Of a stretch of 44,019 bases of DNA, positions 40,451-43,723 are shown one piece after another. The stretch lies in NCBI GenBank assembly GCA_017935905.1, contig JAGBGO010000019.1, forward strand, positions 1 to 44,019, read 5' to 3'. The notes beneath the pieces are model-generated. The model was not told where the DNA came from. It worked only from the letters and a program-made list of their open reading frames with translations, and did no database searches. Position numbers and translations under genes: made by a program. This DNA is from Clostridia bacterium (lineage in GTDB: Bacteria; Bacillota; Clostridia; UBA1212; UBA1255). How positions within the stretch are numbered: the stretch's first letter is position 1; each line of letters opens with the position of its first letter.

Positions 40451-40663
40451 TTACAGCGGCTTTACGTTTGCGGCTCTTAACTTACCGGTGCTCTTAGGGT
40501 CTTCTTCGATGTCGAAAGAAACCTTCTGGCCCTCGTTCAGTGTGCGGAAACCGCCGTTGGAAACGATCGCGGAAAAATGTACGAATACGTCATCTCCACC
40601 TTCGTCGTTTGCGATAAAGCCGTAGCCTTTCTCAGCATTGAACCATTTCACTGTACCGTTCAT
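40451..40663 (-). CDS. csp: Cold-shock protein
   Basis: 70 residues, one OB-fold cold-shock domain. RNP1 (KGYGFI) and RNP2 (VFVHF) motifs are intact: [30 protein letters not shown]. It binds single-stranded RNA or DNA as a chaperone. ATG 40663 follows AAGGAGG. The frame is open further upstream but the promoter lies there, so the short form is right. A consensus promoter implies strong expression. Confidence 0.97.
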
Positions 40664-40715
40664 GACAGGTACCTCCTTAATAATTACTACACTGCACAAA
40701 AAGCGCAGTTTTGCA

Positions 40716-40744
40716 ATTATACTATAAGGTGTAATGCGTGTCAA
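40716..40744 (-). promoter_or_regulatory. Consensus promoter of the cold-shock gene
   Basis: Minus-strand TTGACA (40744-40739) and TATAAT (40721-40716) with 17 bases between: both boxes perfect. The leader is about 45 bases. Confidence 0.9.
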
Positions 40745-40768
40745 GAAATCGGTTTGGTTTTTTGGGGT

Positions 40769-40797
40769 GTAAAATGGGTGGAAGCCACCCATTTTAC
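40769..40797. repeat. Perfect 13-base-pair inverted repeat
   Basis: GTAAAATGGGTGG (40769-40781) and its exact complement CCACCCATTTTAC (40785-40797), loop AAG. It lies between the divergent csp and ferredoxin promoters with no T-run of note, so a DNA-binding site or hairpin rather than a terminator is suggested. Confidence 0.75.
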
Positions 40798-40847
40798 CCG
40801 CTAAAAAGTCCAAAATGAACCAGACCGAGGCGAGAAAATTTGATAAC

Positions 40848-40875
40848 TTGACAAACTTGCTCAATATGATACAAT
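40848..40875 (+). promoter_or_regulatory. Promoter of the ferredoxin gene
   Basis: TTGACA (40848-40853) and TACAAT (40870-40875) with 16 bases between, 34 bases before the ATG. Confidence 0.75.
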
Positions 40876-41195: not shown

Positions 41196-41954
41196 ATGGA
41201 TGTAATGCCCGGAGAGCAGATAGACGATCTGCAATATAACGGTCTTCAAATTATTCAGAAGAAAGGTTTGTTTCGTTATGGAACAGACGGTGTTTTGCTT
41301 GCCAATTATGCGGCTTGCGGCCTTCTGGAAAGCGGCATCTTTCGGAAACACAAAGGGGAAACGCCGTTTCGAATCTTGGACATTGGTACCGGTTGCGGCA
41401 TTGTCCCTATTTTACTGGAAGGCAAACTTCGCGTGAAAGCACCGGAAACCCGAGTGCAACTTTTTGGCATTGAAATTCAGGAAGAAGTGGCACAAATGGC
41501 CAGAAGAAGCGTTGCACTCAACCATCAAGACGCACACGTTCAGATTGATATAGGAGACGTTCGGGAAGCATTTTACCCAAATGCCTCTTTTGATGCCATT
41601 ACCATGAATCCCCCTTACGTGCGCACAGGGAGCGGGCTTCTCAGCGACGCCACCCCTGTGGCAAAGGCTTGCCACGAAATCGTTTGTACCCAGGAAACCA
41701 TGATCGCCCGGGCGGCAAAATTGTTAAAGCCCGGAGGATTATTTTATATGATTAACAAAACCGACCGCTTGGCAGACGCCTTGTGCGCCATGCGCGAGAG
41801 CGGCGTGGAGCCCCGGGAGCTTCGACTGGTAGAAGGGCGGCCCGGTTTAGCCCCCGTATTGTTCGTAGTCAGCGGCGTGCGGGGCGGGGGTAAAAATCTT
41901 CGCATCCTCCCCAATATTAACTTAGAAAGAGGGACAGACTTATGCTCTATGTAG
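41196..41954 (+). CDS. trmN6: TrmN6-like tRNA/DNA methyltransferase (YabB/YfiC family)
   Basis: 252 residues from ATG 41196, behind GAAGGAG. S-adenosylmethionine-binding motif ILDIGTGCGIVPILL near 61-75, FGIEIQEEVA, and the N6-adenine catalytic motif NPPY in AITMNPPYVRTGSG. Relatives methylate A37 of tRNA-Val. It overlaps rsmI by 13 bases. The order with rsmI and a converging abrB-type gene matches the Bacillus yabB-yazA-yabC-abrB region, except that the small GIY-YIG gene yazA is absent. Confidence 0.9.
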   Translation: MDVMPGEQIDDLQYNGLQIIQKKGLFRYGTDGVLLANYAACGLLESGIFRKHKGETPFRILDIGTGCGIVPILLEGKLRVKAPETRVQLFGIEIQEEVAQMARRSVALNHQDAHVQIDIGDVREAFYPNASFDAITMNPPYVRTGSGLLSDATPVAKACHEIVCTQETMIARAAKLLKPGGLFYMINKTDRLADALCAMRESGVEPRELRLVEGRPGLAPVLFVVSGVRGGGKNLRILPNINLERGTDLCSM

Positions 41955-42796
41955 TTGCAACCCCTATTGGAAATTTAGGTGATATTACGCTGCGGGCGTT
42001 AGAAACCCTGCGCAGCGTGGACTTAATTGCGGCGGAAGACACCCGCCACACGTTGGGACTGCTGTCTCACTATGACATTCACAAACCGGTGGTCAGTTAT
42101 TATGAACACAATAAAATGTCCAGAGGTCCGGAACTTCTGGAAAAATTGCAAAACGGTGCAGAGATCGCCTTGGTGTCCGATGCGGGCATGCCCGGCATCT
42201 CCGATCCGGGACACGAACTCATTCGGGATGCTATCCAAGCAGACGTTCCCGTAACCGTAATCCCCGGTGCCGTGGCCGGCATTACCGCCTTGGTGCTGTC
42301 CGGGTTTCCCACAGATCGCTTTGTATTCGAAGGCTTTGTGTCCCAGGACAAGAAAGAGCGGAAACAATTCCGCGCCCGCCTGAAACAAGAAACATGCACG
42401 ACCATCATCTACGAGGCGCCCCACCGCTTGCTGAAGACGTTGGAAGAATTTGCCAACTGGTTCCAAGAAGACGGCACGCCGGATCGCAGAATCGCCGTAT
42501 GTAGAGAACTCACCAAGACCTACGAAGAAGCCGTGCGGGGAACCGGCAGGGAAGTACTGGAACATTTCACCCAAAATCCGCCTCGTGGAGAATTTGTCCT
42601 GATCATTGAAGGCACCACCCACCAAGAAACGGCGGAAACCTACACCGACGAAGACCTCTACGCCCGGGTGGAAACCTACACAAAGCAAGGCAACAAGCCC
42701 AAGGACGCCATGCGCCTTGTGTCCGAAGATACCGGTGTGAAGAAAAACGAAATCTACGCCGCTTGTGAGCGGATTAAAGAATCTCGTTCTCGCTGA
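41942..42796 (+). CDS. rsmI: 16S rRNA C1402 2'-O-methyltransferase RsmI
   Basis: 284 residues. Tetrapyrrole-methylase fold with VVATPIGNLGDITLRALETL at the start, AAEDTRHT, VSDAGMPGISDPG and VIPGAVAGITAL, followed by TTIIYEAPHRLLKTL. A C-terminal helical domain (PKDAMRLVSEDTGVKKNEIY) is complete. It methylates the ribosomal P-site nucleotide C1402. Its last 23 bases overlap the converging AbrB-type gene. Confidence 0.96.
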   Translation: MLYVVATPIGNLGDITLRALETLRSVDLIAAEDTRHTLGLLSHYDIHKPVVSYYEHNKMSRGPELLEKLQNGAEIALVSDAGMPGISDPGHELIRDAIQADVPVTVIPGAVAGITALVLSGFPTDRFVFEGFVSQDKKERKQFRARLKQETCTTIIYEAPHRLLKTLEEFANWFQEDGTPDRRIAVCRELTKTYEEAVRGTGREVLEHFTQNPPRGEFVLIIEGTTHQETAETYTDEDLYARVETYTKQGNKPKDAMRLVSEDTGVKKNEIYAACERIKESRSR

Positions 42797-43046
42797 AGTA
42801 TTCCTCCGGTGCGGACAACTCCGCAATACAGTGGCTACACACGTTTAACCCCTTAAACTCCACAATATCGCCGTCCCGGTTGCAAAAAACACAACTGGGG
42901 CGGTATTTGCGTATCACCACGTCGCTGCCGTGGGTAAAAATCTCCACGGGATCCTGCACTTTAAGATCCAGCAATTTCCGCAGCTCCATAGGAAGCACCA
43001 CCCGACCCAAACGGTCGATATTTCGCACAATGCCTGTAGATTTCAT
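42774..43046 (-). CDS. AbrB-family transition-state regulator with C-terminal four-cysteine motif
   Basis: 90 residues. The N-terminal SpoVT/AbrB swapped-hairpin barrel (STGIVRNIDRLGRVVLPMEL, then DPVEIFTHGSDVVIRKY) runs to about residue 48. The second half contains CVFCNRDG and CSHC, a possible zinc or disulfide site. AbrB proteins bind promoters as tetramers and adjust entry to stationary phase. Start ATG 43046. The ribosome site AAAGGAG lies inside a hairpin, see the adjacent element. Confidence 0.93.
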   Translation of the reverse strand: MKSTGIVRNIDRLGRVVLPMELRKLLDLKVQDPVEIFTHGSDVVIRKYRPSCVFCNRDGDIVEFKGLNVCSHCIAELSAPEEYFSENEIL

Positions 43047-43049
43047 ATA

Positions 43050-43092
43050 AAAAACTCCTTTGCAAGTAAACTCACGGTGAACTGCAAAGGAG
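43050..43092 (-). promoter_or_regulatory. Hairpin masking the ribosome site of the AbrB-type gene
   Basis: On the minus strand CTCCTTTGCA (43092-43083) pairs perfectly with TGCAAAGGAG (43064-43055), which contains the AAAGGAG ribosome site; a T-run follows and the ATG is eight bases on. The structure can work as an intrinsic terminator or as a translation lock. Confidence 0.75.
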
Positions 43093-43138
43093 TAAAACGA
43101 CTACCGTATGAATATCATACTCCACGGGCTCCGCCGCG

Positions 43139-43723
43139 TCAATCCCTTTGAAAAATATTTCCCAACTTTTGAAGTTCCTGGTAAATTCTGGCAACCGGGA
43201 AGCCTACCACGTTGTTGTAGTCTCCTTGTATGCCGGTGACGTGAAGGCCAAAGGCCCCTTGAATGCCGTAGGCACCTGCCTTGTCCCGATGCTCGCCGGT
43301 TTTCAAATAAGCCCGGATTTCAGCGTCTGTAAGGGGTGCCACAGAAACCTTGGTCTCCTCGCAGAAGGTCTGGGTTTCTTCCTGTGTAATCAAGGTGACG
43401 CCGGTAAAAACGCTATGGGTCTTGCCGCTCATCCCGGCAATCATCACGTAAGCGTCTTCGTCATCCTTGGGCTTGCCCAAAATCTTTCCTTCAATGGCAA
43501 CCACCGTATCGGCGCCGATCAGCACGTCTCCTTCTTGCGGCGGACAAACCGCCAAAGCCGCCTCCGCTTTTCGCTTGGAAAGTTGACAAACCGTATCTTC
43601 CGGCGTGCAAGGCGCGATGGTTTCGTCGCAGTCCGCGCTGACACAGGTGTAGGGCAAGTTCAGCAGTTGAATCAGTTCCCGTCTTCGGGGAGAGGTGGAA
43701 GCTAAGATTAAGTGGGTATCCAT
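43139..43723 (-). CDS. maf: Maf-type nucleoside triphosphate pyrophosphatase
   Basis: 194 residues. LILASTSPRRRELIQLL at the start, GADTVVAIEGKILGKP and QGDYNNVVGFP near the end are diagnostic. Maf proteins hydrolyse dTTP, UTP or modified nucleotides and are tied to division arrest and house-cleaning. ATG 43723 has AAGGAG at a longer-than-usual distance of 12 bases. Confidence 0.95.
   Translation of the reverse strand: MDTHLILASTSPRRRELIQLLNLPYTCVSADCDETIAPCTPEDTVCQLSKRKAEAALAVCPPQEGDVLIGADTVVAIEGKILGKPKDDEDAYVMIAGMSGKTHSVFTGVTLITQEETQTFCEETKVSVAPLTDAEIRAYLKTGEHRDKAGAYGIQGAFGLHVTGIQGDYNNVVGFPVARIYQELQKLGNIFQRD

Follow-up and report, generated by a model that had tools for sequence, protein, structure and literature searches.

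The window analyzed here, a stretch of 44,019 nucleotides from a Clostridia bacterium, carries the gene of a 90-amino-acid AbrB-type regulator (abrB), with maf, for a Maf-like nucleotide pyrophosphatase, co-directional and directly upstream, and the convergent rsmI, for a 16S rRNA 2'-O-methyltransferase, overlapping its 3' end by 23 bases (Table 1). The abrB product has the N-terminal AbrB/MazE-like domain and the MKSTGIVR start common to its relatives, and scored 27.5 bits against TIGR01439, slightly below the cut-off of 28.3; we treat it as a putative AbrB-type regulator, to which DNA binding and transition-state control may be ascribed from the family only. Among the matches listed, rsmI neighbors abrB within the flanks at 43 of 110 loci; at 40 of these 43 it lies downstream and points the opposite way. 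Near abrB (flanks of ~1.5-2.5 kb), maf was found in 2 of the 110 listed loci, namely in the two genomes that carry the hairpin described below: that of the window and a sister genome (G001), the sole genome of the same genus compared. On the minus strand, maf ends with its stop codon at 43139, and the abrB ATG follows after a gap of 92 nt.

Table 1. Positions of the abrB locus features (window numbering) and of further genes in the same genome whose leaders have a similar order (locus:position)
Feature	Position	Strand	Evidence or remark
maf	43139..43723	-	PF02545 200.4 bits; TIGR00172 159.9 bits, cut-off 117
abrB	42774..43046	-	PF04014 36.4 bits, cut-off 24.7
rsmI	41942..42796	+	TIGR00096 271.8 bits, cut-off 167.9
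Degenerate copy GGGAAATATTTTTC of family palindrome GGGAAATATTTCCC, inside maf 3' end	43150..43163	-	alignment of 8 family leaders
Predicted promoter TTGACG-N17-TATGAT	43142-43114	-	10/12 consensus matches; homologous in family leaders
-10 plus 5' tail TATGATATTCATACGGTAGTCG	43098..43119	-	identical in sister genome, 22/22
Left (anti-SD) arm ACTCCTTTGCA	43093-43083	-	fold; 10/11 bases (43092-43083) unchanged in sister genome
Hairpin loop, 18 nt	43082-43065	-	diverged in sister genome (19 nt, 5 further inner pairs)
Right arm TGCAAAGGAGT, SD AAAGGAG at 43061-43055	43064-43054	-	fold
T6 run 3' of stem, first T also closing the stem	43054-43049	-	kept in sister genome
VTC-domain gene	L157:6825		arm-loop-SD arm-T-run-start
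gpr	L150:5815	+	TIGR01441 317 bits
Gene without family	L238:2615		arm-loop-SD arm-T-run-start
Gene without family	L210:10143		arm-loop-SD arm-T-run-start
NA37 gene	L128:12644	+	arm-loop-SD arm-T-run-start
pdaA-like deacetylase gene	L134:12217	-	TIGR02884 277 bits, below cut-off 298
thiT	L213:7619	+	behind TPP riboswitch RF00059
M14/LysM peptidase gene	L128:2881		arm-loop-SD arm-T-run-start

The hairpin over the abrB ribosome site

The gap holds a hairpin (43093-43054, minus strand) that takes the entire Shine-Dalgarno sequence (SD), AAAGGAG, into its right arm. An earlier note on this DNA had described a perfect 10-bp stem with AAAGGAG in the right arm and a T-run and the ATG next to it, and both the sequence reading and the fold confirmed this anatomy: the stem is perfect over 11 bp, or over 10 bp if the closing A-T pair, to which the T6 lends its first base, is left out, and the ATG (43046-43044) begins two bases past the T6. 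Folded alone, the hairpin reached -17.2 kcal/mol (z -5.4), and 0 of 200 dinucleotide shuffles were as stable. It thus has a stable stem followed by a U run, and the likeness to a terminator that had been proposed holds in shape, with a terminator d-score of 7.2 in the window and 16.1 in the sister genome, where the hairpin has 15 pairs and a 9-nt loop. In the window, G-C pairs make up only 5 of the 11 and the 18-nt loop, which is paired inside only in part, exceeds the usual terminator loop, which counts against the hairpin working as an attenuator; it was not listed by a consensus terminator scan because that scan permits loops of 3-8 nt only.

A scan for CTCCTTT-N6..30-AAAGGAG gave 2 occurrences in the own genome and 1 in that of the sister, against 0 for the reversed control in both. 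A mobile repeat was rejected as the origin of the stem, which is not repeated elsewhere in the genome. A GTG frame that runs through the loop and ends in a TGA overlapping the ATG was likewise rejected as a leader peptide, since it has no SD and is not kept in the sister genome (by eye).

Since eight abrB-family leaders align through TTGAC and the -10, both found at the same place in 8/8, the promoter at the maf end is credible, and transcription of abrB is predicted to start near 43107, 5' of both arms. In six family members (L009, L011, L020, L027, L031 and L032) the palindrome GGGAAATATTTCCC, a likely operator, lies immediately 5' of this promoter; in the genus of the window it is degenerate and falls within the maf coding end (43163-43150). 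Between the promoter and the left arm lie 20 nt, of which ~14 would be leader, and, because the promoter lies wholly upstream of the arms, the hairpin is part of abrB's own predicted transcript, with the SD paired inside it. A start within the hairpin, which the earlier note had named as refuting its reading, is therefore not what the promoter predicts.

Conservation and rarity of SD burial

We compared the locus with that of the sister genome, in which gene order is unchanged and AbrB is 87% identical. Both 10-base arms and the T6 are kept there; the loop differs and is one base longer, and the SD-ATG spacer is two bases shorter. With dS at 0.86-1.35, unconstrained bases should have drifted, and the paired bases are thus conserved in the sister genome around a drifting loop. 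The compensatory changes that the earlier note had asked for in relatives were not seen in the arms, as only two genomes carry the hairpin, zero arm bases differ between them and the other relatives are without it. The dN/dS of 0.05-0.08 points to purifying selection; the protein is therefore in use and must be made at some time.

We then considered abrB leaders more widely. From 113 loci fetched, of which the contig-search part comprised the best 80 of at least 573 confirmed matches, a motif search yielded 108 leaders (missing L004, L006, L031, L032 and L033), and 106 were compared once the SpoVT-type loci L002 and L003 had been left out; at least one pair among them, L009 and L066, is the same locus counted twice. 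Across these 106 leaders, among the matches listed, the cost of opening the SD was 12.4 and 14.1 kcal/mol in the sister genomes, 6.6 in the next leader and 1.6 at the median, and the hairpin was absent from the other 104. The leaders of L031 and L032, inspected by eye, were also without it. Two SpoVT-like starts lie on one contig besides a full-length spoVT (L002, L003, L004; G000:C71, G000:C34:2588-4207), and one of them has nearly spoVT's own leader, suggesting that they may be partial duplications of spoVT.

To place abrB within its own genome, 1037 genes with an SD of at least 5 bases were called in 1,871,583 bases, and the SD-opening energy was computed in a 90-nt stretch. At 12.4 kcal/mol, abrB ranked 8 of 1037 (median 3.0), which bears out the proposal that its ribosome site is locked. 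When the SD was fixed and the upstream bases were shuffled, the observed energy was reached in 0 of 2000 trials for abrB here and in 1 of 2000 for the sister genome. A SigA-like promoter match was available for 252 genes, 205 of them with a long enough leader: 11 bases of the abrB leader match its SD region and the remaining genes have at most 5, so that abrB alone reaches 6 or more; permuted pairings gave 3.9 such genes on average. Because of this shortfall, we conclude that SD hiding tends to be avoided in this genome's leaders, with abrB as the exception.

These observations bear on the account that a plain maf terminator overlaps the abrB ribosome site by chance and, regulating nothing, leaves AbrB low and fixed. 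The terminator shape would fit, as would the presence of maf upstream in both hairpin genomes and in 0 of the 108 other loci (within the flanks, among the matches listed). However, abrB has its own promoter before the hairpin and would thus throttle itself, and complete burial of the SD is otherwise avoided among this genome's leaders; we consider this account improbable.

Nor do the arms read well as a DNA operator that AbrB or some other dimeric regulator would bind, with the RNA fold as a by-product. Autoregulation is frequent for AbrB-type genes and the arms are perfect in both genomes, but the arm spacing differs by one base between them, TGCAAAGGAG occurs only 4 times in 1.87 Mb, two of which are these arms, and the overlap with the whole SD and the T6 would be left unexplained. 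We regard an operator as most improbable.

A putative default-off leader

We propose, with about an even chance of being right, that the hairpin is a default-off attenuator combined with a ribosome-site lock that also ends read-through from maf. RNA from the abrB promoter, or from maf read-through, would fold the 11-bp hairpin once it is made; hairpin and U6 could then halt RNA polymerase just ahead of the abrB start codon. Any RNA extended past this point would have its SD hidden by that stem, so that little AbrB would be made by default. Since maf adjacency and the hairpin coincide, in 2 of 110 loci among the matches listed, the hairpin in the 92-nt gap may double as the end of maf transcription. 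Termination at the hairpin, low translation of abrB and the role for maf are what we infer from the anatomy. The amount of AbrB would be set by an opener, which might be an RNA chaperone, a small RNA, an elongation factor or simple slow leakage. Against this proposal, a route for opening was not found although the protein must be made, and the abrB start site is a prediction. Release of the SD by CAAAGGG of the maf end was considered for longer transcripts and rejected, as maf-derived transcripts stay locked at 9.3-11.5 kcal/mol in the window and 13.0-14.5 kcal/mol in the sister genome. The window also encodes, on the minus strand within 40451-40864, a putative cold-shock-type RNA-binding protein, named from its sequence; as an opener of the abrB hairpin it is a lead only.

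Could the leader itself sense a signal? The earlier note had suggested that a temperature shift may free the SD, but this was not supported: opening the SD cost 15.2, 12.5, 11.7, 10.3 and 8.7 kcal/mol at 20, 37, 42, 50 and 60 C, respectively, and an RNA thermometer was rejected because, computed over 20-70 C, the SD was not freed at physiological temperature. The other form of this idea is a small pseudoknot riboswitch in which CGGT of the 5' tail (43106-43103) pairs with ACCG of the loop (43078-43075). This match occurs in both genomes, the 5' tail is perfectly kept in the sister genome, and a riboswitch ahead of thiT in the same genome uses such a stem form. Yet the leader offers only ~14 nt ahead of the left arm, a match of four bases is weak and possibly due to chance, and Rfam gave 0 matches in the window at gathering score; at E up to 1, two weak matches appeared in L005 and zero in the abrB leader of either genome. 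A signal-sensing RNA of either form is thus, in our judgment, highly improbable.

The thiT leader offers a natural reference for the abrB hairpin and speaks for the default-off reading. A TPP riboswitch (RF00059) lies at L213:7449-7562, just 5' of thiT, and its last stem takes up the SD, with a T6 and the ATG coming next; because the TPP aptamer is directly upstream, the stem is read as the riboswitch off-state. The abrB stem, with its SD arm, T6 and ATG, is like this off-state but is unlike it in having no aptamer match and hardly any leader 5' of the stem. At both gathering and lax Rfam thresholds, thiT was the only one among the genes of interest with a riboswitch.

Known systems provide further points of comparison. 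The Bacillus subtilis sigG RBS hairpin (5 bp, -6.2 kcal/mol) lowers translation at a 2-4-fold cost, and a strengthened version nearly blocks it (PMC5942855). As proposed here for abrB, the RBS of a developmental regulator is occluded from within its own leader, and the sigG hairpin is not known to have an opener (PMC5942855). The abrB hairpin differs in belonging to another gene and in its 11 bp, -17 kcal/mol, T6 and terminator shape; since the sigG hairpin already costs 2-4-fold, the longer abrB stem should cost more. In B. subtilis abrB itself, a trans-acting small RNA, RnaC/S1022, pairs with the RBS and the first six codons (PMC8464778). RNA pairing would thus control an abrB ribosome site in both cases, with the difference that the pairing here is within the leader. 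A terminator-shaped RBS lock on abrB was not found in a literature search confined largely to open-access papers.

Leaders of similar order in the same genome

Ranking genes by hidden SD revealed that the order of arm, loop, SD arm, T-run and start recurs in the own genome (Table 1). At least 4 T followed the SD in 12 of the 28 genes at 9 kcal/mol or more versus 64 of the 1009 others (Fisher p 1e-7, at a cut chosen post hoc), where 2 of the 12 (L144 and L226) resemble false starts. The pattern CTCC-N12..40-GGAG-N-TTTT..ATG yielded 5 own-genome and 7 sister-genome matches, against 1 and 0 in the reversed control, and all 5 own-genome places have a visible sister counterpart, that at C37:18858 being a weak stem.

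Individual cases were followed between the two genomes. At gpr (L150:5740-5815, plus strand; sister L317), an SD-hiding stem of at least 9 bp and a T-run are present, and the stem has persisted as the loop changed; the hairpin is at full strength only in the two sister genomes (15.7 and 11.5, next 8.9 and 7.5) and not in the 23 others among the gpr leaders that were readable, 25 of 30 loci. At the pdaA-like gene (sister L289), stem and T-run persist despite two one-sided changes and an exchange of both partners from C-G to T-A, the one compensatory change seen at any of these genes; its loop holds a conserved CATATCTATG. In both sister genomes the gpr loop contains what we take to be a sigma-F/G-like -10, and the loops of gpr, the pdaA-like gene and L238 may hold sporulation-type -10 boxes, which is a lead only. 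At NA37 (L128:12570-12646, plus strand; L279 and L290), the left arm of the SD-hiding stem lies within the spacer of TTGACA-N17-TACAAT, and the two sister genomes do not differ anywhere from before the -35 through the ATG.

The left arm also falls in the -35/-10 spacer at L237:11038 and L207:284, and at all three genes the own RNA would therefore be without the left arm, so that the lock would act on read-through alone. Own-SD complementarity of at least 6 in this spacer was seen in 14 of 252 genes versus a permuted mean of 7.5 (maximum 14, 200 permutations), so the excess among SigA spacers is only suggestive. Such a layout, present in some other genes of this genome, resembles that of I-TevI, soc and e of phage T4, where a stable stem conceals the SD whenever the transcript is longer (PMC2988022), and that of the large B. 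subtilis sigG hairpin, which does so in read-through transcripts (PMC5942855). In those systems, the RNA from the gene's own promoter is without the left arm, whereas the predicted abrB promoter makes the whole hairpin, and a terminator T-run does not figure in the descriptions (PMC2988022, PMC5942855).

If abrB were itself of this T4/sigG kind, its transcription would start inside the hairpin, its mRNA would be without the left arm, and only read-through from maf would be terminated and locked. The three spacer cases favor this, as do the joint occurrence of abrB hairpin and maf adjacency and the neighborhoods of hand-listed members (abrB included), 10 of 11 of which have a co-directional frame (at least 90 codons) ending within 220 nt upstream, at 60-205 nt, compared with 607 of 1037 genes. 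However, the one good promoter at the locus has homologs across the family and stops 20 nt short of the left arm rather than placing the start past it, and a -10-like element common to both abrB loops was not found by eye. We consider a start inside the hairpin rather unlikely for abrB, and retain the default-off leader as the preferred reading.

Together, these leaders allow a broader proposal, which we put forward tentatively and hold to be possible but doubtful: that a genus-wide device fuses a terminator with the next gene's ribosome site, so that RNA reading through would be terminated early and could not be translated. The usual form would have the promoter between the arms, as at NA37 and probably at gpr, the pdaA-like gene and others, several spore genes among them. 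Because its promoter ends before the left arm, abrB stands outside this form; there the device would lie wholly downstream of the promoter and would act as a switch, off by default, rather than as an insulator, and the developmental regulator behind it would depend on an opener acting in trans.

Should the lock operate as proposed, AbrB-type developmental control in this lineage would be set after transcription begins and not at the promoter alone, and either something must open the hairpin or AbrB must be kept very low. The wider class, for its part, would amount to a compact insulation of neighboring genes in a small genome, in which the stop signal of one gene also blocks translation of the next, and its members form a defined set of leaders for testing.
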